Notes under the pieces: model-generated | The model's input: only the letters and a program-made list of their open reading frames with translations | What the model was told of the DNA's origin: nothing | Database searches by the model: none | Shown here: positions 2,507 to 12,887 of the stretch, piece by piece | Layout: each line of letters opens with the position of its first letter | How positions within the stretch are numbered: the stretch's first letter is position 1 | From: Burkholderiales bacterium | GTDB lineage: Bacteria; Pseudomonadota; Gammaproteobacteria; Burkholderiales; Burkholderiaceae_D | Length of the DNA stretch: 12,887 nucleotides | Assembly: GCA_016197345.1 (NCBI GenBank) | Contig: JACPVY010000192.1 | Span: 1-12,887 of the forward strand | Reading direction: 5' to 3' | Made by a program: the position numbers and the translations under genes

Positions 2507-3617
2507 TTAGTGCGGTGCCAAGGCAGCGCGTGCGGCCAGCATGTCGTTAAAGCGTGCAATTTGCTCTGGTTTGGTCAAATGTAGCAAACGCATGGTCTTG
2601 ATATGCAGATCGACGGGCAAGGCGATACGCCATGTGATGTCGATACGGTTGTCTAACATGTTGATCAAGAGCGTGTCGATTTCCATTTTTTCAGGGGCGA
2701 GCATGTCACCTTCAACCAAATTCATCAGCACGCACGCATGTTGCGGCACGATGAAATCCAGCACGTAATTACCATTCGCGCCAATTTTGGCGGCAGCGTG
2801 ATTTGCCGGGCAGAGATTGACAAGACGCACATGCTCACCGCCCTGCAAATAGCGGCATTGCTGGTCTAGCGGCGCGCAATTCCAATAGCCATAGTCAAAA
2901 TTGGACGGCAGGCTAGGCACACTCTCTGCGCTATAACCTTGTTGCGCCATTGCGTCTACCTTGCCGACTTTGGCTAAGCGCGGTTGCCAGCCACGGCCAA
3001 GGCAACCTAAGCTAGCGGGTGCTGGCATTTTGCCTGTTTGCAAGGTGTGCGCTAGTGCCGCTTCGTCAAAGGCTTGATGTGCATAGGTGATCTGTGGTGC
3101 GGCGATGGCGGTGAGGTTTTTTGCACGGACATACCAATCACGGCAAAAACCTAGCCCAAGCGGATTGCCCTCACAGATTTGATGCGCAATTGCGCCGCTA
3201 GTTGGGTCAACTTGCGGCATCGATAGCCACGCTACCGACTTGCAATTGCACGGAAAATTGTGGGACAGCCTGAGCGCGAGGGGCGAAGCCGCTACCCAAC
3301 ACCAACACATCACATCGCGGTTTATAGGGCGCGAGGTCGCTCTCAATCATCGTGCTGTGCAAAAAATCATTCTCATAATGCTGATCTTCAGTCGCTAGCA
3401 TCACTTTTTCTGCGCAAGGATGCAGTGTTGCAAAGCCATGCGCATCCACCGCGCCTAGGGTGTAGGCTGTTTTTGCCACCACCACATGGAAGGCGCTTTG
3501 ATGCTGGTCTAAGGTGTTGAAAAAGAGCGCATCCAATCCTGTGGTGTTTTCAAATTCCGGCGTTGGCAAGCTTTGTGCAAGCGAGTTGACATCAATTGCT
3601 GTGGATTGCTTTATCAT
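2507..3617 (-). pseudogene. DUF2169-type T6SS adaptor gene, frameshifted
   Basis: Two overlapping minus-strand frames together resemble one DUF2169 protein. The N-terminal frame (ATG at 3617; a TTG at 3632 is possible; stop TGA at 3207-3209) carries the family stretch ESDLAPYKPRCDVLVLGSGF and then FSVQLQVGSVA. The C-terminal frame, shifted by one base, continues to TAA at 2507-2509 with NPLGLGF, LGRGWQPRLAKVG, LPSNFDYGYWNCAPLDQQ and YLQGGEHVRLVNL, all typical of the second half of the family. The join lies near 3206-3240. From memory of the family, about 45-50 residues (KTLxVFGxRxW to YExAFGG) should lie between these parts and are absent, so a deletion as well as a frameshift is likely. DUF2169 proteins act as cytoplasmic adaptors that load effectors on VgrG (Atu3641 in Agrobacterium is an example). 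Its place between vgrG and rhs fits that role. A sequencing error could mimic the frameshift but not easily the missing block. Confidence 0.75.
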
Positions 3618-3680
3618 AGTGGGTTCCGGCAAAAGCGGGGTTAGCTAGGCGCAGGTAGGCTAAGGTAAGCCCAATCAGGC

Positions 3681-5828
3681 TTAGGCAGGGTTATTGTCGA
3701 TATCTTTACCGTGCACTTCTACCTTCTTGCTGCCCGTGATAAACACCTCTGTCCCGGCAATTTCGATGCGGCCATCGGCATGCATCGTAAAGCTGCTTTT
3801 GCCCACCGTGATTTTGAATTGTTTGCCTGCAACCACGCTCATGGTTTGCCCCACCATCGCGGTTTTGGTCATGCCGACTTCTTCCGCCTGCGCCATTGCC
3901 ACGGTGGTATTCATCGCGCCACCTACCGTGGTTTGATATAAGCCACCAATCGAGAGAAATTTCGCTAGTGCGACTGTTTCGCTCTTGGTTTTGCCCACCG
4001 TTTCCGATTTATGATCGCCGATATGCACGCTACGCGAATGACCGATGTGAATGTCCTCATTCTTGCCGACATCCTCGGTGCGGTTATCACCTATGCTAAT
4101 TTTCTCGTTATGATCAACCCGCTCGGTGCGATCATTATGCACGGTGATTTTCTCATCGTGATCCACCGTTTCCGTCCGGTCATGCTTCACATGCACGGTT
4201 TCATCGTGGTCGATAGTCTTGCTGCGGTCGTGTCCTACCCAGTGGCTCTCGTCATTCTCCACCTCAATGCGCTGATCTTTTTCCGCGTGGAGCCAAACCT
4301 CTTCCTGCCCTTTTTTGTCTTCAAAGCGGAAAGCATTGGCGTTTGCAGGTGTGCCGCCTTTACTAGAGCGCGACAGAATACCGCTTTGGGTTTGATTGGC
4401 TGGTAAATCCCACGGCGGCATATGGCGCTGGTTGTAAAGCTGCCCAACCACTAGGGGACGATCTGGATTGCCTTGCAGGTATTGAATCACCACTTCTGTA
4501 CCGATACGTGGCAAGGAAATCATGCCGAAATTTTTATCGGCCCACGGCGTCATCACTCGCACCCAGCACGAGCTTTTTTCGTCTAACTTGCCCATTCTGT
4601 CCCAATGGAATTGGACTTTGATACGACCAAATTTGTCGGTGTAGATTTCTTCCCCTGCCGGGCCAACCACAGTAGCGGTATCGACACCTTGTACTTTGAT
4701 GACTTGGCTGTTAAACCCAAAAGGAGGACGCCAGCGCACATTGCGCCGTAAGCAGGTGAAGTTATTGCTGTAATAGGCTTCGCCGCCTTGCGAGTTAAGC
4801 AGATTATTGCGAGCGGTGTGGCTGGCACGCAGAATCAGGAATTCGTATTCGGTGGTCGAGCCTTGAAAGCTTTGGCTAAGTGAATCTTTGGTCAGGCGAA
4901 ACCAGCGCCCCGGCTTGATATAGCGGCTATCGCTGGTGGCCGTGAAGGTTTTGCCGCTAGCGTCAATCTGTTCCATTCGCCGTTTAGCGAGCAATGCGCC
5001 CATCGCGCTATCTTTGTAGCCATATAGGCCGTGATAACGATACACCTCAATCTTGTGAACATCGCCTTGCTTATGCTGGCTGGTGTCTGTCACCATAACA
5101 GGCGTAGGCGCTTTAAAATCGAAGCTGGAATAACTCACCTTGCCCGACACTATCGAGCGCTGCGGTTGCCAATTTGAGATTTTGTCAAACTCATTGCTAC
5201 CGCCATCGTGATGCAGAGGAATCGCTGGGTTGCCGTCGATAGGTTCTGCTGCCATCGAATAATCCGATAGCATCAAGCGGTGGCCGCTGGCAGTATGTTC
5301 ATACCAGTAATGCAGACCGTGTTCTTCCCAATGACGGTGCAAAAAGTTGTAATCTGTTTCTTCGTACTGCACAGTGAACGTTCGCTTGTGGTCGCCATCG
5401 CGGATTTTGATATCAAAGCTGGCAGTGCCGTAGTCGAGAAAAATTTCCTTGGTGATTTCAGCGAGGGATTGATTGTGGAATATAAAAAAATCGGTACGCA
5501 AACGTAGTAGCGCCAGCCAAGGCTTGAGGATCATTTGATACACGGCGGTGCCGTTGTCTATCTTTTGCAGGCTGAATTCAAAGCAATAGCCATTGAAATA
5601 GCGCGTGCTATGATCGTCGCGCATCAATTCCACACAAACCATTTTGCCTTGCACGTCTTTCAGAGCAATCTCGGCGTCATCAGACAGCACTTGTAGAGTA
5701 AAGGTGAAATCGCTGGAGAGTTGTTCATCAGCGATGAATTCGTTAATGAGAAAGCTTGCCTGTGGCCCGTTATTGCGCGGGAAAGTCAACTTCATCAAGC
5801 GGGTTGCATTATTGAGTAAGGAAAACAT
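3681..5828 (-). CDS. vgrG: T6SS spike protein VgrG
   Basis: VgrG trimers form the tip of the T6SS inner tube and carry PAAR-capped effectors into target cells. The 715-residue product has the full layout: a gp27-like base at about 1-370 (ETDYNFLHRHWEEHGLHYWY at 157-176); a gp5-like OB fold at about 375-465, with GRIKVQFHWD at 401-410, WVRVMTPWADKNFG at 422-435 and GNPDRPLVVGQLYN at 453-466; the conserved RFEDKKGQEEVWLHAEKD at 501-518; then a beta-helical needle to about residue 690. It ends at KDIDNNPA, with no extra C-terminal toxin domain, so this is a structural VgrG rather than an evolved effector VgrG. The ATG at 5828 precedes the first base-domain strands; no good Shine-Dalgarno is visible. 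It is the first gene of a leftward vgrG-DUF2169-rhs cassette, 63 bp before the adaptor ATG, with a candidate promoter at 6021-6049. Confidence 0.95.
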   Translation of the reverse strand: MFSLLNNATRLMKLTFPRNNGPQASFLINEFIADEQLSSDFTFTLQVLSDDAEIALKDVQGKMVCVELMRDDHSTRYFNGYCFEFSLQKIDNGTAVYQMILKPWLALLRLRTDFFIFHNQSLAEITKEIFLDYGTASFDIKIRDGDHKRTFTVQYEETDYNFLHRHWEEHGLHYWYEHTASGHRLMLSDYSMAAEPIDGNPAIPLHHDGGSNEFDKISNWQPQRSIVSGKVSYSSFDFKAPTPVMVTDTSQHKQGDVHKIEVYRYHGLYGYKDSAMGALLAKRRMEQIDASGKTFTATSDSRYIKPGRWFRLTKDSLSQSFQGSTTEYEFLILRASHTARNNLLNSQGGEAYYSNNFTCLRRNVRWRPPFGFNSQVIKVQGVDTATVVGPAGEEIYTDKFGRIKVQFHWDRMGKLDEKSSCWVRVMTPWADKNFGMISLPRIGTEVVIQYLQGNPDRPLVVGQLYNQRHMPPWDLPANQTQSGILSRSSKGGTPANANAFRFEDKKGQEEVWLHAEKDQRIEVENDESHWVGHDRSKTIDHDETVHVKHDRTETVDHDEKITVHNDRTERVDHNEKISIGDNRTEDVGKNEDIHIGHSRSVHIGDHKSETVGKTKSETVALAKFLSIGGLYQTTVGGAMNTTVAMAQAEEVGMTKTAMVGQTMSVVAGKQFKITVGKSSFTMHADGRIEIAGTEVFITGSKKVEVHGKDIDNNPA
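3993..4232 (-). repeat. Five 16-residue (48-bp) repeats in the VgrG needle
   Basis: VgrG residues 533-612 are five 16-residue units in a row: HDRSKTIDHDETVHVK, HDRTETVDHDEKITVH, NDRTERVDHNEKISIG, DNRTEDVGKNEDIHIG and HSRSVHIGDHKSETVG. The pattern is xDRTExVxxxExIxIx, that is two 8-residue turns of the gp5-type triple-stranded beta-helix per unit. The units become less alike toward the C-terminus, as expected for old internal duplications. The first units are unusually rich in His and Asp. Confidence 0.8.
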
Positions 5829-6557: not shown

Positions 6558-8030
6558 ATGAGTCAACGCCTTCGCTTTCTATTAGATACGAACATCCTGA
6601 TCCCACTTCAGGATTCGTATCAGGTGTTGGCGAACAATCTTGCAAATTTCGTCATGCTAGCCAGTATTGGGGGACATCAACTCCTCCATCATCCAGCAAG
6701 CATTACCGATTTTGAACGCGACAAAGACGTTCAACGGAAAGCCCGTAATCTTCAACGTATCCGCCAGTACCCAGCGCTAGAAACTCCGGCGGCTTGCCCT
6801 TGGAATACAGAAACCACAGGGGCAAATGATGCATGTGACAACGAGATTTTGTATGCTCTTGCGTGTGATGCGGTTCATGCGCTCGTTACCGAGGATCAAG
6901 GGATACACGCGAAAGCGAAGGTCAGGGGTTTGTCTGGCCGGATTTATACGATCCAGATGGCAGAAGATTGGTTGCGGCGCTTGCATGAACCGCACAAAGT
7001 CGTCCTCCCCAACATTCAAGATTTACCACTACACAGCCTGACACCAGAGCTATCCTCGATTTTTTTTGACAGCCTCCGGGAAGGTTATGCTGGTTTTGAC
7101 GATTGGTTCCGACAAAAAGCCCGCGAAAATCGCATGGCGTGGGTCTATCGTGATGAAACGGGTGCAGTAGCCGCAATCTGCATTTACGCTACGCAAGCAG
7201 ATGAAGCCATTAATGATGCAGGTGAGCGGCTTTCCGGCAAGGCTCTGAAACTTTGCACCTTTAAGGTTGGAGATACAGTTCGTGGCCGAAAAATTGGCGA
7301 ACTGTTCTTGAAAGCTTCTTTTCAGTACGCGACAAAAAATGCTTGCGAACATGTGTTTCTTCATACAAATGCGGAGCGGCACGACTATCTGATACGTCTA
7401 TTGCAAGATTTTGGATTCGCGGAACGTGGCAACTATGGCTGTGATGTGGTACTTGTCAAAGCGCATCCGATTGCTGCGCCGGATGCATCCACACTGCCAC
7501 CGTTGGAATACGTGAAACGGTTTTTCCCACATTTTCGGCAAGATGCGCAGGTACAAAAATTTCTCATCCCTATCCAACCGCACTTTCATGAAATTTTGTT
7601 TCCAGATTATCAACCTATACAAAGTTGCCTTTTTAACTTGCCCAATAATGTCGGCAACGCTATCAAACTGGCCTATCTATGCCATGCACAAACCAAGTCT
7701 ATCCATGTCGGCGATGTGGTGCTGTTTTACAGAACAGATGATGAAATGGCAATCACTTCTATTGGCGTGGTAGATAGATTCGAGATGCTGGATGATGCTG
7801 CACAGATCGCAAGCCTTGTCAGCCGTCGGACTGTATACTCCATTACGGAAATTGCTAAAATGGCAAAGCGTCCGACCAAAGTAATCCTCTTTCGCTTGGT
7901 AGAACATCTCTCAAAGCCTGTTGCGTATAATCAACTCCTGCGTGACGGAGTTGTCACTGGCCCCATTCAATCCATTTGCAAAATTACCAATGAATCATTT
8001 TCAAGAGCAATCGCAGCAGCCAGAAATTAG
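6558..8030 (+). CDS. PIN nuclease-GNAT acetyltransferase-PUA/EVE-like fusion protein
   Basis: The 490-residue product appears to join three domains. Residues 1-140 look like a PIN nuclease: FLLDTNILIP with D10, acidic residues D51/E53 in TDFERDKD, DACDNEIL with D94, and LVTEDQGI with D113, which together could form the metal-binding acidic set. Residues about 165-300 look like a GNAT acetyltransferase: VRGRKIGELFLK at 241-252 resembles the acetyl-CoA pyrophosphate loop (with K245 where Gly is usual) and LIRLLQDFGFAERGNY matches motif B. Residues about 311-490 resemble a PUA/EVE-type fold (VQKFLIPIQPHFHEILF, then GDVVLFYRTDDEMAITSIGV), which in relatives binds RNA or modified bases. PIN domains usually cleave RNA, and GNAT toxins acetylate aminoacyl-tRNA; the target here is unknown. 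The ATG at 6558 places the first PIN strand at residue 6, so the start is sound despite no clear Shine-Dalgarno. It overlaps the ASCH gene by 41 bp and leads the operon. Confidence 0.8.
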   Translation: MSQRLRFLLDTNILIPLQDSYQVLANNLANFVMLASIGGHQLLHHPASITDFERDKDVQRKARNLQRIRQYPALETPAACPWNTETTGANDACDNEILYALACDAVHALVTEDQGIHAKAKVRGLSGRIYTIQMAEDWLRRLHEPHKVVLPNIQDLPLHSLTPELSSIFFDSLREGYAGFDDWFRQKARENRMAWVYRDETGAVAAICIYATQADEAINDAGERLSGKALKLCTFKVGDTVRGRKIGELFLKASFQYATKNACEHVFLHTNAERHDYLIRLLQDFGFAERGNYGCDVVLVKAHPIAAPDASTLPPLEYVKRFFPHFRQDAQVQKFLIPIQPHFHEILFPDYQPIQSCLFNLPNNVGNAIKLAYLCHAQTKSIHVGDVVLFYRTDDEMAITSIGVVDRFEMLDDAAQIASLVSRRTVYSITEIAKMAKRPTKVILFRLVEHLSKPVAYNQLLRDGVVTGPIQSICKITNESFSRAIAAARN

Positions 8031-8454
8031 TGCGATTTTGCTTTCTATCAAGCCCAAATATGCCAACCTCATCATTGAAGGCACCAAAACCGTCGAATTG
8101 CGCCGGGCGATTCCATCGAAACAGGTAGGGACAATCGCTATTTATTCATCGTCACCTGTGCAAATGATTGTTGCTGTAGCCGACGTAAGGGAAACTGTCG
8201 AAGCGAGTCGCACACGATTATGGTCTATCGCAAAAAATAATGGCGGTGGCCTGACCCGCAGAGAACTGTTTGCTTATTTTGCAGGCAAAAAAACAGGTTT
8301 TGCGCTCATGTTGGAAAACGTGCGGACGTTTGGCAAACCAGTGCTGCCAACAAAAATTTTTAAGCCATTTTCAGCGCCACAGTCATTTCGATACCTGACG
8401 CAAAAAGAACTGAAGAAATTGGAGCGGCTTTTGCAATCGGAAGAAAAAAAATGA
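7990..8454 (+). CDS. ASCH domain protein (PUA-like)
   Basis: The 154-residue protein is essentially one ASCH domain. It opens with ISAILLSIKPKYANLIIEG and then the family signature G-x-K-x-x-E-x-R (GTKTVELRR, residues 31-39), followed by TIAIYSSSPVQMIVAVADV and the C-terminal APQSFRYLT. ASCH domains are PUA-like folds thought to bind RNA. E. coli YqfB, a member, hydrolyses N4-acetylcytidine; as I recall its Lys21-Thr24-Glu74 set, the position of Thr24 is Glu36 here, so the same chemistry is not supported. I chose the ATG at 7990 because the domain begins about 12 residues later; an upstream start at 7921 would add 23 residues from inside the preceding gene. It overlaps the PIN-GNAT gene by 41 bp and the next gene by ATGA, so translation is probably coupled. 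Confidence 0.85.
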   Translation: MNHFQEQSQQPEISAILLSIKPKYANLIIEGTKTVELRRAIPSKQVGTIAIYSSSPVQMIVAVADVRETVEASRTRLWSIAKNNGGGLTRRELFAYFAGKKTGFALMLENVRTFGKPVLPTKIFKPFSAPQSFRYLTQKELKKLERLLQSEEKK

Positions 8455-8993
8455 GCGTTATCTTCTTGGCTGGGGTGCATGGTGTAGGGAAAGGATTTCT
8501 CGGTACTCCAGCCGCCCAAACCCTAGGCATGAGTCACTTTACCGCCAGCCAGTTGATCCGCGAAGAAAAAGGGCGTGCAACTTGGGGGCAAGATAAAAAA
8601 GCTGTTGATCTTGATGATAATCAACAGGCATTAATACGTGCTGTCGCACTAAGGCAGTCAACGCATAACGCAATTTTGCTTGACGGCCATTTTGTTCTGC
8701 GAAATGCTCAAGGTATCTTGGTTCCGCTTGAACAGAAAGTTTTCGCACAACTCCAGTTATGTGGCGTGATACTTCTTTCTGAAAATACTGGCGTCATCGC
8801 CAACAGGCTCCGATTGCGGGACAGTGTAGATGTAAAAGTAGTTGAAATTGCTGAGTTGGCGGATGCTGAAATCCGTCATGCCCGTATCGTATGCGCTGAA
8901 CTCGGATTACCGTTAACCGTGATTCACGCTCCCACCGAAATGAACCTGTGTGCCGCGATTCAGGCGCTGCTGTCAGGATGCCAAAACGTATGA
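8451..8993 (+). CDS. Small adenylate-kinase-like P-loop NTPase
   Basis: The 180-residue protein has a P-loop GVHGVGKG at residues 8-15, a Walker-B-like ILLDGHF at 75-81 (D78), and Arg-rich RLRLRD at 119-124 like the LID region of nucleotide kinases. The layout (HFTASQLIREEK after the P-loop, late AEIRHARIVCAELGLPL) matches small single-domain ATP-binding proteins of the adenylate kinase/AAA_17 type. The residue after the P-loop Lys is Gly, as in adenylate kinases (GKGT), but the Thr that follows there is Phe16 here, so the hydroxyl that coordinates magnesium is missing. Activity is therefore uncertain; it could be a nucleotide kinase, a nucleotide sensor or an antitoxin-type partner. Its ATG overlaps the ASCH stop as ATGA and its own stop overlaps the next ATG the same way, which implies tightly coupled expression. 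Confidence 0.82.
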   Translation: MSVIFLAGVHGVGKGFLGTPAAQTLGMSHFTASQLIREEKGRATWGQDKKAVDLDDNQQALIRAVALRQSTHNAILLDGHFVLRNAQGILVPLEQKVFAQLQLCGVILLSENTGVIANRLRLRDSVDVKVVEIAELADAEIRHARIVCAELGLPLTVIHAPTEMNLCAAIQALLSGCQNV

Positions 8994-9543
8994 GTTACGT
9001 CATTCATTGCACAAAAAAATTGCTGGATCGAGTCAAACAGCCTGTGGTCACGCCATCCGAAGATTCGTCCTCGCTACTGGGAACTTGGTACGCCACCGCC
9101 TTGTTTTGGAAACCGCAACTTGCCTTGCTTGTGAATGAACCCTTTTACCGATATTGATGCCCTTAGCCCCAGCGACGGATTTAGGTTTGCGTTTCCCTCA
9201 GTATTTGTCGCGCATCTTGACGGCTCACGGTATTAGCGCTAGCGCCTCCTTTATCGCGTATGAGCTATTGCAAATGCGCCAAGTTCTGTATGCCAAGACC
9301 GTGAATCGTAGTGTGGTCGGGGTGATGAATCAGTTTGTGTTTTTAGCCGAGCGCTATCGTGAATGCGGTGAGGCGGATGATCCGCTAGCACTCTCGCTTC
9401 ACTTATCTGAAACCCCATGTAGCCCGCTGTACAAAAGCACGATTTCACCCAAATCCGAATTGAAGCGTGTGGTTAATGAATGGTGCTTGGCAAACTCTAG
9501 CGCACGACTGGCAAGCGACGTGGGACAGGCAACAGACAAATAG
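8990..9543 (+). pseudogene. DUF6933-type gene with single-base frameshift
   Basis: The gene starts with ATG at 8990, overlapping the NTPase stop as ATGA. The first frame gives MSYVIHCTKKLLDRVKQPVV, then LGTWYATALFWKPQLALLVN, and stops at TGA 9155-9157. One base back, the second frame gives LLPILMPLAPATDLGLRFPQ and runs to TAG at 9541-9543, with KTVNRSVVGVMNQFVFLAER near the end. Joined, these make a protein of about 184 residues that matches my memory of DUF6933 (HCTKKLL start, WYA, NETLLPxLMPLAP, KTxNRSVxGxMN). Adding one base near 9138-9146 (for example GAACCC restored to GAAACCC) gives VNETLLPILMPLAP, so the lesion is very probably a one-base loss, or a sequencing error in the CCCTTTT run. 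The family's function is unknown to me. Its tight overlap places it in the operon, though such genes can also occur alone. Confidence 0.78.
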
Positions 9544-9666: not shown

Positions 9667-12600
9667 GTGACTCAACCTAATCTTGCTGACCAGCCGACTG
9701 AATCCACCTTCTTAAAAAACGACCTGCCGATTAATGAAAAGCTTGAACGCGCCCGGATGGAGTTGCTGGATTTGTCTGCGCGCAACAAGTTGCTCAATAT
9801 CCCTAGAAATTCCAAAACCTCGCGCACCATCACCATCATTGATGAAAAATCTGAAGAAATTTTCAGAATGCTGGTCACTGAGAGCAAAACCTTTACGTTT
9901 TTACCGGGACGAGCTTCTGCGCAGGCAAAACAGGAAGAAGACGAAGAAGAAATTGTTGAGCTTGCCAATCCCGACGAAAGCATAGACGAACAGGGACGAG
10001 CCAAGCGTCATATAGATAACAAACTGCAAACCCGGCTGACGACTAAAGGATTGCAAAAGCGCCTGCTTGATCTTTGCCTCGATGCGCAAACGCTGGAAGA
10101 AGAACAAGGTGTCAACATCCTGTACATGGGTTTGGGAACCTTGAAATGGATTGATCCAACCACGAAAAATATCCGCTTTGCACCGTTGATATTGATTCCG
10201 GTAAGACTGGAGCGCGGCAACGCTGCGGAACAATTCAAACTCAAGTGGCGTCAGGAAGACCCCGCTACCAATTTATCGCTGGAAGTTTTTCTTGAACGTG
10301 TCCATTCCTTGAAAATGCCCGAAGTGGCGATGGACGAGGACTTCAACATTCGCGCCTATTTCAGTGCTGTGGCGCAGGTGGTTCAATCAAAAGCCAATTG
10401 GGAAGTGAACAGCGATGACATCGTGCTTGGCTTTTTCTCATTTGCCAAGTTTTTGATGTTTGTTGATCTTGATGCTGCGGTGTGGCCCCTAGACCAAAAA
10501 TTGACAACCCAGCCACTGATTCGCGGTTTGCTCGCTGATGGCTTTGCAGATGATGGAGCCTTGATTGCTGATGATGCCAATATCGACCCTCATATTGCGC
10601 CAGCGGATATGCGCCATATTGTCGATTGTGATAGTTCGCAATCGCTCGCAGTACATGACGTTCGGCAGGGGCGCAACCTGATTGTGCAAGGGCCGCCGGG
10701 GACAGGTAAATCACAGACCATCGCCAACATCATTGCCGCTGCGATTGCGGATGGTAAAACGGTATTGTTTGTCGCCGAAAAAATGGCAGCGCTGGAAGTC
10801 GTCAAACGCAGGCTTGATCAAGTAGGTGTTGGTGACGCTTGCCTTGAATTGCACAGCAATAAAGCCAATAAGCGCATGGTGCTAGATGAGTTGCGTCGCA
10901 CTTCTGAGCTAGGTTCTCCCAAAGGTCAATTTCCGACCTCGTTGAATCAACGCATTCAAACCGCCCGCGATTTGCTCAATGCGCATGCTACTCGGATGCA
11001 CGAGTACCATCCCCATGCGAATCTGACTCCTTATCAAGTCATTGGCCAGCTCACCCGTTTGCGTCAGGACGGGGTGATGCCAAACGCCATCACCTTTACG
11101 CGACCTGAGCTATGGTCTGCCGACGAAACAAAATTACGTCTTCAGTTGGTTGGTGAACTGGCGCAACGCATTACCGAGACTGGACTACCTGCAAACCATC
11201 CGTGGCGTGGCATTGGCATTACCAGCATTATTTCGACCGAAGTGACACGCTTAATGGTGCAAATCGGGCAGTTACAAGCCCATGCTGTGCAAATTGAAGG
11301 CGACCAAACGGCATTGGCGCAAGCGTTAGGTGTGCCAGTGCCAAGCCGATTGAGTGACTTTGCCACCGTTGTCACTATAGCGGAAAGGGTTGCCCCAGCA
11401 CCATCACTTTCCGCCAAAGCGATGACTGCGCAGATTTGGAACAATGATCACTCCAGCATCACAAACCTGCTCAAGCACGGCAAAACCTATCAGCACTATG
11501 TCACTACCTTGAGTGAGACGGTCAGTGCTGCCGCATGGACGAGCGATATTACGGAGTTGCTTGGCCTCTTTACAGTTTTGCCCGCAAGCTTTGCTAGCAC
11601 GCACTTTCAAACCACGCAAAAGCTGCATGCGCAGTTACCTAAGCTTTTGCGGCTAGCACATCAATTGGCACAAGACTTAGGCAACGCACGTCCGCTTGAT
11701 AACATCGCTGCCATTAAACGGGCGATTACCACCGGGGAGCGTGTAGCCTGCGCGCCGAATGTCAGCGCAGATGTTTTTGCCGCGACAATATGGGATAACG
11801 GTGTTGAACAGGCGGCTGATTTGGCCGAGGCGGTAAAGACATTTGAGCAAGAAAAGCGCGGCTTGCTAGATCAAGTGACCGAAGCTGCTTGGGATATCGA
11901 CCTTGCGCCAGCAAGGCAAGAGTTAGCCATGCATGGCGCAAGCTGGCTCAGATTTTTCCGTGCAGACTGGCGCAACGCTAACAAGCTGGTTAGGTCTTTG
12001 CTGAAAAATCCCGAACTGGCTCTGACAGAGCAAATCACCATATTAGACCGCTTGATCTGCGCACAAAAAGCACGCGCTGTGATCTTGCAAAACGATGCTT
12101 TTGGCCGCATCGCCTTTGGCGAAGACTGGCGTGCCGAACACTCAAAAGCGGCTCCATTGTTCGCTATCGTCGAGTGGATGCGCAGCCTGCGCGGTCTGGG
12201 TGCAGAACCGCGCTTGATCGCCAGCCGTTTGCCAGATCGCCCTGCAATCGGTGAGCGGGTAAAACAGGTAAGTGCCATGTTGGACGAATTGCTACCGTTG
12301 CTAAGCGAGCTTTGGCATGAACTGGGTTGCGCCCGCGAGACTTTCTTTGCCGATTGTCCACATCCTGAACAGCTTTCCTTGCATGTCCTGACTGCCGAAG
12401 TGGATAAGCTTGTGCGCTTATACCAACAAGGCGCAAGCCTGATACCCACTATGCCGCCTGTTGCCGAACAGGTTTTAGCGATCTTGTCTGACCTAACCAC
12501 AGGCCAGCAAGCATTGAGGCAAATCTTGGCGAACTATGATCAGGGACGCGATGCATTTGACGATCAATGGCAAGGGCCGGATTCTGACTGGCAAGCGTTA

Positions 12601-12887
12601 AGTAGTGCCGCCGAATGGATGACGACCAATCTGGATATCCGGGAAGTGGCGGCTCGGCATCCTGATAAAGCGCAGCCTTTGCACGCCGCCAATGCGGTGC
12701 AGGCCAGCATTGCGCAATTAATCGAAGGCGTTGACAAGCTGTTTTTTGATTTATGCAGCAATAGCGAAAATTTATTTGGCGTGGCCCAAACAGGCTACAT
12801 TTCGATAACCCGCTTGCTGGAGCGCTTTAGCTTATGGCTCGAGCAGGAAGAACAGCTATCAAAATGGGTGACATATCGTGACCGCGC
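9667..12887 (+). CDS. Large DUF4011-type SF1 helicase, 3' end off window
   Basis: From GTG at 9667 the frame stays open to the right edge (1073 complete codons). Residues about 21-60 carry the DUF4011 signature (ARMELLDLSARNKLLNIPRN, then TSRTITIIDE). TKGLQKRLLDL and FAPLILIPVRLER follow at 126-183. A Q-motif-like CDSSQSLAV (321-329) precedes the Walker A QGPPGTGKSQTIANIIA (341-357), and motif Ia-like KTVLFVAEKMAALEVV lies at 364-379. No motif II (DExx) appears in the remaining roughly 690 visible residues, which form a long, mostly helical insertion; motif II and later motifs should lie beyond the window. Full-length relatives are about 1,800-2,000 residues and often end in a Vsr/DUF559-type nuclease. 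GTG is preferred over the ATG at residue 31, which lies inside the DUF4011 signature, and it has GAAGG 7 nt upstream. A DUF4011-helicase-Vsr protein has been reported as an anti-phage gene (Hhe, from memory); whether this one has a nuclease cannot be seen. Confidence 0.88.
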   Translation, partial: MTQPNLADQPTESTFLKNDLPINEKLERARMELLDLSARNKLLNIPRNSKTSRTITIIDEKSEEIFRMLVTESKTFTFLPGRASAQAKQEEDEEEIVELANPDESIDEQGRAKRHIDNKLQTRLTTKGLQKRLLDLCLDAQTLEEEQGVNILYMGLGTLKWIDPTTKNIRFAPLILIPVRLERGNAAEQFKLKWRQEDPATNLSLEVFLERVHSLKMPEVAMDEDFNIRAYFSAVAQVVQSKANWEVNSDDIVLGFFSFAKFLMFVDLDAAVWPLDQKLTTQPLIRGLLADGFADDGALIADDANIDPHIAPADMRHIVDCDSSQSLAVHDVRQGRNLIVQGPPGTGKSQTIANIIAAAIADGKTVLFVAEKMAALEVVKRRLDQVGVGDACLELHSNKANKRMVLDELRRTSELGSPKGQFPTSLNQRIQTARDLLNAHATRMHEYHPHANLTPYQVIGQLTRLRQDGVMPNAITFTRPELWSADETKLRLQLVGELAQRITETGLPANHPWRGIGITSIISTEVTRLMVQIGQLQAHAVQIEGDQTALAQALGVPVPSRLSDFATVVTIAERVAPAPSLSAKAMTAQIWNNDHSSITNLLKHGKTYQHYVTTLSETVSAAAWTSDITELLGLFTVLPASFASTHFQTTQKLHAQLPKLLRLAHQLAQDLGNARPLDNIAAIKRAITTGERVACAPNVSADVFAATIWDNGVEQAADLAEAVKTFEQEKRGLLDQVTEAAWDIDLAPARQELAMHGASWLRFFRADWRNANKLVRSLLKNPELALTEQITILDRLICAQKARAVILQNDAFGRIAFGEDWRAEHSKAAPLFAIVEWMRSLRGLGAEPRLIASRLPDRPAIGERVKQVSAMLDELLPLLSELWHELGCARETFFADCPHPEQLSLHVLTAEVDKLVRLYQQGASLIPTMPPVAEQVLAILSDLTTGQQALRQILANYDQGRDAFDDQWQGPDSDWQALSSAAEWMTTNLDIREVAARHPDKAQPLHAANAVQASIAQLIEGVDKLFFDLCSNSENLFGVAQTGYISITRLLERFSLWLEQEEQLSKWVTYRDR

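Follow-up and report, generated by a model that had tools for sequence, protein, structure and literature searches.

The contig JACPVY010000192.1 from the assembly of a Burkholderiales bacterium (GCA_016197345.1) carries three overlapping genes that encode, in order, a PIN-GNAT-EVE fusion (M11A), a small ASCH protein (M11B) and an AAA_17 P-loop NTPase. We read them, with a probability of about 0.6, as a mobile toxin-antitoxin-like module of the (PIN-)GNAT-EVE / ASCH / AAA_17 kind, represented in PADLOC by PDC-M11, with the phage-encoded GevT-GevA pair as a PIN-less relative. This reading draws support from the PADLOC matches of M11A and M11B, the annotation of GevT and GevA, and a patchy distribution among genomes. 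The stretch analyzed, hereafter the window, is the entire contig of 12,887 bases and comes from a genome assembled to 68% completeness in 675 contigs. A sequence-only reading of it had proposed four genes, overlapping by 41, 4 and 4 bp, that form a coupled toxin/immunity-type unit with the fusion as likely effector and the ASCH protein and NTPase as control parts. The coupled unit and this predicted division of roles are supported by our results, as are the overlaps of genes 1 to 3 and the overlapping ATG at position 8990, but the fourth gene (DUF6933) is not a single open reading frame (ORF) to position 9543. The parts of the module, with lengths in amino acids (aa) or nucleotides (nt), are as follows.

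6558–8030, forward strand: M11A, PIN-GNAT-EVE (PUA-like) fusion, predicted effector or toxin, 490 aa (ORF; PADLOC PDC-M11A, 4e-140; PF00583, 1e-5; homologue of GevT)
6558–6992, forward strand: predicted PIN part of the fusion, approximately residues 1–145 (conserved D10, N12, D91, D94 and D113; PIN_3 in relatives)
7014–7463, forward strand: GNAT part, approximately residues 153–302 (PF00583; conserved K231, T234, G247 and an RGRKIGE stretch; GNAT matches in Foldseek)
7545–8027, forward strand: predicted EVE/ASCH/PUA-like reader part, approximately residues 330–490, with borders estimated from the model (Foldseek; EVE in Pfam at 0.14)
7990–8030, forward strand: coding overlap of M11A and M11B, 41 nt, in the same phase as the usual 23-nt overlap of relatives
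7990–8454, forward strand: M11B, ASCH protein, predicted antitoxin or RNA-binding partner, 154 aa (PADLOC PDC-M11B, 7.5e-47; PF04266, 1.6e-6; 5GUQ, 9e-12)
8451–8993, forward strand: AAA_17 P-loop NTPase of the adenylate-kinase type, 180 aa (PF13207, 7.2e-16)

Gene and domain content of the module

Gene 1 matched the PADLOC model PDC-M11A with 466 bits and gene 2 matched PDC-M11B with 156.9 bits. Pfam confirmed the GNAT domain of the fusion (PF00583), the ASCH domain and the NTPase that the sequence-only reading had named; its PIN and EVE domains were below threshold in the window protein and are argued for by the family alignment and the predicted fold. The N-terminal part of the window fusion, searched alone, matched only PIN_4, at 0.3. 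Among 17 aligned family members, PIN_3 was found at E ≤ 1 in 13 (best 1.8e-5), the window protein not being one of them. D10, N12, D94 and D113 were invariant across the 32 alignment rows that span the PIN part, D91 was replaced by E in two of them, and the acidic positions were similarly kept in a separate 17-row alignment. EVE was weak by Pfam in the window fusion and reached 5.8e-4 in a relative (locus L091). A predicted model of M11A had a mean predicted local distance difference test score (pLDDT) of 64; its GNAT and EVE parts were usable and its PIN part was poor. With this model as a query, solved ASCH/PUA-like and GNAT structures topped the Foldseek results, led by structures of the Zymomonas mobilis protein ZmASCH (E = 5.7e-7), a match that probably belongs to the EVE part. 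The sequences of the fusion and of GevT gave nothing better than 0.15 against solved structures. The combination of PIN, GNAT and EVE in one protein, by which Bell et al. define such fusions, was found here with PIN and EVE assigned through family alignment and predicted fold.

Two variants of gene 1 were also seen. Three genomes from the family of the window have ORFs of 742–752 aa (among them L183, 3422–5647, and L184, 3070–5310; also L024–L026) that end in an M11A-like EVE domain and have an ASCH gene after them. Two of the three ORFs were scanned with Pfam, which placed GNAT and then PIN_3 N-terminally, giving an apparent order of GNAT-PIN-(perhaps degenerate GNAT)-EVE. In a set of viral contigs (L130, L133–L136, L139, L142–L144, L146, L147, L151, L152, L155, L158 and L175, with a degraded case in L149), GNAT and EVE occur as two genes, separated by a stop codon with a close in-frame ATG, which amounts to fission of the fusion, and the AAA_17 gene lies in the opposite orientation.

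In gene 2, Pfam found ASCH only, and hence no ribbon-helix-helix (RHH) or helix-turn-helix (HTH) domain as in TacT-type antitoxins. HTH-annotated ASCH genes do occur in alphaproteobacterial relatives. The protein is homologous to ZmASCH, whose structure has been solved (PDB 5GUQ; E = 9e-12), and which is reported to be a Mg-dependent nuclease that degrades single-stranded RNA and leaves single-stranded DNA intact, with Tyr47, Lys53 and Ser128 contributing to binding and cleavage (PMC5615036). By alignment, the cleft residues Y47, Q127 and S128 of ZmASCH are kept in gene 2 as Y52, Q131 and S132, and Y52 and S132 were present in 53 of the 54 rows of the ASCH alignment.

The start codon of gene 2 lies inside gene 1. 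We compared 92 same-strand fusion-ASCH pairs, taking in each the ASCH start codon closest to the ASCH domain. The overlap was 23 nt in 58 pairs, 17 in 10, 41 in seven, 29 in three, 14 in three, 62 in two, and 11 and 44 in one each. One common phase was thus shared by 85 of the 92 pairs; the remaining seven comprised five gaps, one 1-nt overlap and one pair without a start. When ASCH proteins were clustered at 80% identity (91 pairs), the same phase held in 52 of 58 clusters. Twelve annotated records with ASCH downstream gave an overlap of exactly 23 nt in eight, 28 nt in one and gaps in three. The usual 23-nt overlap codes for a NESF-like end of the fusion in one frame and a MKVLLSIK-like start of ASCH in another. 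In the window, the ASCH ATG coincides with the NESF codons, and six further residues of the fusion beyond them produce the 41 nt. A TTG at position 8038 is closer to the ASCH domain and would give a 7-nt gap, which places the window outside the 41-nt count; the ATG at 7990 is preferred as the start because relatives match it. The shared phase suggests that the 41-nt overlap is a conserved feature of the fusion-ASCH pair, and at the level of sequence both the adjacency and the phase hold across bacteria, archaea and phages.

Gene 3 begins within the last codons of gene 2, the two sharing an ATGA (4 nt; ORF listing and DNA reading). Its product has a Walker A motif (GVHGVGKG), a DGH motif, and the arginines R119 and R123; G8, G13, K14, D78, H80 and R123 were kept in 42 or 43 of 43 rows. 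The residue following the Walker lysine is G in the window and close relatives, and T or S in distant ones. The AAA_17 profile found archaeal adenylate kinases (approximately 1e-10), the top match being a designed particle. To test the link in the other direction, viral contigs were searched with the AAA_17 alignment alone, which returned 63 loci (47 clusters at 80% identity). The fusion and/or ASCH gene lay within about 2 kb at 62 of these, and both did at 59; at the exception, L159, the contig end cuts inside the AAA_17 gene.

The position and presence of the AAA_17 gene vary among branches. It lies downstream of ASCH in the branch of the window (e.g., L002, L032, L049–L052 and L098–L100); other branches (L005, L045, L090) have it upstream of the fusion. 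At 50 scored loci it was present at 28 of 34 PIN-bearing and 5 of 16 PIN-less ones; the broken PIN genes of L048 and L113 were counted as PIN-bearing, and L003, L046, L097, L103 and the second copy in L100 were left unscored on account of a contig end or a shared gene. On a tree of 54 rows, PIN changed state once and AAA_17 seven times. Natural fusions tie the parts together further: fusion and ASCH form one ORF in L091 (PIN-GNAT-EVE-ASCH, 641 aa), and ASCH and AAA_17 form one ORF of 329 aa in L092.

Distribution and gene neighborhoods

M11A was found in 12 of 398 genomes sampled from the phylum, 9 of 369 from the class, 6 of 389 from the order and 12 of 392 from the family, and in none of 14 controls; each count includes the window's own genome and some weak or broken hits. 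Among 40 relatives searched, only the window's own genome had it. Plasmid records (33) and phage records (16) also contained M11A, among them archaeal plasmids and the Methanothermobacter prophage psiM100; 21 of the plasmid records and three of the phage records were examined. A search of viral contigs with the window fusion itself gave no match. Since a contig-level search yielded two loci only, genome searches took its place. The table of 54 loci omits short or weak M11A hits (L010–L012, L027, L081–L083) and the 742–752 aa proteins (L024–L026), and uses duplicates once.

The sequence-only reading had suggested tabulating the neighbors of the fusion across genomes. When this was done, an ASCH gene adjoined the fusion at 53 of the 54 loci, the exception (L097) ending at a contig edge, and together with the 62 of 63 loci of the AAA_17 subfamily this bears out the expected co-occurrence. 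Among 608 neighboring genes of 51 loci, there was no conserved fourth gene. Five families recurred in at least three loci, none of them DUF6933: two families of type I restriction subunits, a short protein annotated as GNAT in one record, a family whose tested members had neither a Pfam nor a PADLOC assignment, and a family annotated as Mu transposase in one record. At L055, L096, L102 and L109, a second, separate short protein (annotated as GNAT family in L109) lies beside PIN-less modules, as does a member of an unassigned protein family that is found in L106 too. In a Mesorhizobium plasmid (L069, 8851–10188), a DUF4365 protein adjoins the module and matches Argonaute-associated models of PADLOC (REase-PNTD1-PNTD2).

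The defense-island setting that had been expected was recovered in part. We scanned 117 of the 254 genes of at least 150 aa around PIN-bearing loci, leaving out the window; five of the 117 proteins matched type I specificity domains and four matched N6_Mtase. Many copies, however, lie in prophages or on plasmids, and in the 63 viral-contig loci the fusion was PIN-less in 52 and PIN-bearing in nine. Single loci varied this picture. L100 (7401–11316) has tandem modules, PIN-GNAT-EVE/ASCH/AAA_17 and then GNAT-EVE/ASCH. In psiM100 (L031, 2554–5843), an annotated inserted fragment, IFa, spans most of the PIN-GNAT-EVE gene, and the ASCH gene (ORF5) is annotated as common to phage psiM2, which may retain an antitoxin relic without the toxin.

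The window copy is flanked by a type VI secretion system (T6SS) cluster and a DUF4011 helicase, both of which serve here as context only.

3681–5828, reverse strand: T6SS VgrG, divergent from the module (TIGR03361, 5.7e-161)
9667–12887, forward strand: DUF4011 helicase, truncated at the contig end (PDC-S37; partial NCBIfam ProA and Hhe matches below cut-offs)

The ProA and Hhe matches fall below their cut-offs because the contig end cuts the helicase. Models of PADLOC and NCBIfam class such proteins as anti-phage or candidate anti-phage, in agreement with the defense type assigned to this neighbor by the sequence-only reading. A Pfam scan of the window ORFs detected no restriction gene up to the contig end at 12887, and no integrase, transposase or replication gene. 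Hits in a promoter and terminator scan were no more frequent than in shuffled sequences. The type VI secretion cluster consists of VgrG, DUF2169 and PAAR-like Rhs genes, of which DUF2169 is split over two frames (2507–3346 and 3207–3632); counting DUF6933, the contig carries two broken genes.

Proposed mechanism and alternative explanations

In the mechanism that we propose, the fusion would be the toxin. Its EVE/PUA-like domain would dock on RNA that carries a modified base, tRNA being the likeliest target. The GNAT domain would acetylate either this RNA or the aminoacyl end of it, and cleavage of the bound RNA by the PIN domain would stop translation. The ASCH start codon inside the toxin gene would cause both proteins to be made together, and the ASCH protein would keep the toxin or its RNA inactive. 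The AAA_17 protein, probably a switch, would read or change a nucleotide or RNA end and thereby decide between retention and release of the toxin. If infection by a rival phage triggered release, abortive defense would follow. A more specific version is put forward tentatively, as possible rather than probable: AAA_17 may be, rather than an optional accessory, the dedicated, adenylate-kinase-derived switch of a tripartite toxin-antitoxin, controlling the RNA-reading PIN/GNAT effector by changing or sensing a nucleotide or RNA end. It may act through ASCH, to which it is naturally fused in L092.

Several observations weigh against this interpretation. The module's toxicity, antidote role, substrate and trigger, along with binding and phage protection, are predictions within a proposal drawn from sequence. 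Support for PIN is indirect: no PIN family matched at E ≤ 1 when the whole window fusion was searched with Pfam, the model has low confidence in this part, and a profile of the PIN N-termini found PIN proteins among solved structures only at 0.2–0.24, behind an unrelated protein at 0.0023. The K53 of ZmASCH is Q58 in the window and varies across the family (Q, G, R, S, K, M); moreover, ZmASCH is itself a reported nuclease, so that "antitoxin" is not the sole reading of the ASCH protein. The rows of the AAA_17 query were members of the module, and the figure of 62 of 63 therefore holds for this AAA_17 subfamily only. AAA_17 was absent at six of the 34 PIN-bearing loci (three archaeal, two actinobacterial and L091) and is therefore not essential everywhere. 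A correlation between AAA_17 and PIN (Fisher p = 9e-4) was rejected, as the loci are not independent when PIN changes state once on the tree. Finally, a search of the literature covered (see below) found no paper on GevT/GevA, whose names rest on record annotation.

The alternative that survives best, and to which we give a real but clearly smaller chance, is that the same toxin-antitoxin parts serve the mobile element rather than the host, through addiction, prophage or plasmid maintenance, or superinfection exclusion, chromosomal copies being relics. The plasmid records and viral-contig loci described above are in keeping with this, as are copies in phages of E. coli, Lacticaseibacillus and Methanothermobacter and the GNAT-EVE proteins in prophages noted in the portion of Bell et al. 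available (PMC7641849). The same source places PIN-bearing copies near type I restriction systems, as we found for some, and the window copy, flanked by the T6SS cluster and the DUF4011 helicase, has no mobility gene among the scanned ORFs; both points count against this alternative.

Modification of DNA, in which GNAT would acetylate a DNA base and EVE and ASCH would read the modified DNA, is unlikely. According to Bell et al., Iyer et al. (2013) put it forward, and the HTH-ASCH fusions and association with restriction systems that Bell et al. describe (PMC7641849), as well as the HTH-annotated ASCH genes of relatives, would suit it. PIN domains are RNases in the members that have been studied. 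That PIN domains act on RNA, with which Bell et al. concur, and the fact that the solved ASCH relative degrades single-stranded RNA but did not degrade single-stranded DNA (PMC5615036) speak against DNA as the substrate. A non-toxic operon for RNA repair or modification, in which the kinase-like partner could heal RNA ends, is more doubtful still given the patchy distribution, the mobile context and the annotation of GevT as a toxin.

The least probable alternative is a true four-gene system that includes DUF6933, with the frame break as an assembly error. The DUF6933 gene, outside the conserved module, is present as two pieces.

8990–9157, forward strand: first piece, 55 aa (PF22016, 2.6e-9, profile positions 1–46)
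9154–9543, forward strand: second piece, in another frame, the gene being broken in the assembly (PF22016, 1.4e-16, profile positions 60–156)

An ATGA overlap of 4 nt joins the ATG at 8990 to the AAA_17 stop (ORF listing and DNA reading), both pieces are still family-like, and the similarly split DUF2169 gene would fit an error-prone assembly. From 8990, however, the reading frame runs only to a stop at 9157. Ten intact DUF6933 copies read straight through by alignment, and the break in the window falls inside a conserved NERTLLP block; it may reflect either a true mutation or a fault of the assembly. A DUF6933 profile found the family at one of the 54 M11A loci, namely the window, and at none of the 53 others (several with short flanks), nor at any of the 63 AAA_17 loci. 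Conversely, M11A, M11B and AAA_17 queries gave no match at 10 other DUF6933 stretches (about 13 kb or less each, from nine genomes) or at the viral DUF6933 locus L119. DUF6933 occurred in 10 of 385 genomes of the family, and in two family samples only the window's genome had both it and M11A. Equal longest-contig values for AAA_17 and DUF6933 (1242) and for the fusion and DUF6933 (11427 and 2833) might hint at linkage but were no better than shifted controls: DUF6933 shared two values with M11A (control mean 0.7) and three with AAA_17 (control mean 1.5), neither being significant, and M11A shared four with AAA_17 (control mean 0.72). The inclusion of DUF6933 as a fourth member was accordingly rejected, and the broken frame and absence elsewhere lead to a three-gene module plus a damaged neighbor, DUF6933 being best seen as a separate gene. 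DUF6933 is itself a PADLOC candidate, PDC-S63, matched at 2.8e-8 to 1.8e-14 by all four intact relatives scanned and weakly by the second piece in the window; its predicted model (mean pLDDT 44.9) was unusable.

Relation to known systems

The sequence-only reading knew of no characterized system with this set of genes. It has in fact been described or named already, by Bell et al. in 2020, by PADLOC as PDC-M11, and in the annotation of GevT/GevA. A literature search, with bioRxiv and most subscription papers outside its coverage, showed no experimental study of the system among the papers listed, experiments being found for an isolated ASCH relative only; the parts available of PMC10853773, PMC12839542 and PMC11514479 contain no mention of the fusion.

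GNAT toxins of the TacT/AtaT type belong to type II toxin-antitoxin systems, in which the antitoxin is a DNA-binding RHH or HTH protein. The window module shares the GNAT fold with them but joins it to PIN and EVE in one protein and pairs it with an ASCH protein. ZmASCH is a homologue of gene 2 with shared cleft residues, its K53 not being kept. In the record of Escherichia phage PhiR47_2 (PV340567.1), the homologue of gene 1 is named GevT (toxin) and that of gene 2 GevA (antitoxin); these matched the M11A and M11B models with 443 and 173 bits, respectively. As in the window, a GNAT-EVE gene is followed by an overlapping ASCH gene (23 nt); unlike the window, the phage pair has no PIN, and no AAA_17 gene was found in its 7-kb stretch (L030). 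To judge by the model names, M11A and M11B proteins define PDC-M11, and the adjacent, overlapping genes 1 and 2 match both models; the difference lies in the AAA_17 protein, for which PADLOC-DB 2.0.0 gave no match. Such PADLOC candidates were obtained by guilt-by-embedding and most await validation (PMC12988326, in part).

The closest description is that of Bell, Wolf and Koonin (2020), who reported PIN-GNAT-EVE operons with ASCH and often AAA_17 and proposed a role in toxin-antitoxin or defense; according to the available portion of their paper, no module of these putative systems had been experimentally characterized at that time (PMC7641849). The domain order of the fusion, the ASCH partner and the AAA_17 partner are all as in the window. 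They regarded AAA_17 as frequent, not invariable, and expected it to have a non-essential role, whereas here its subfamily keeps near-constant company with the module. Taken as a whole, the window locus is an ordinary copy of this already described, still uncharacterized kind. To the portion of that account available, our analysis adds the conserved overlap, the fusion-ASCH and ASCH-AAA_17 single ORFs and the company of the AAA_17 subfamily, sequence evidence that places both the AAA_17 protein and the in-gene start of ASCH within the module. It links PDC-M11, GevT/GevA, the solved RNA-cutting ASCH protein and the predicted operon family into one testable system, and provides facts for the design of experiments, in which the ASCH gene should be taken with its in-gene start and the AAA_17 partner included. 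If confirmed, this would be a toxin family in which a single chain, guided by a reader of modified bases, combines cleavage of RNA with acetylation.

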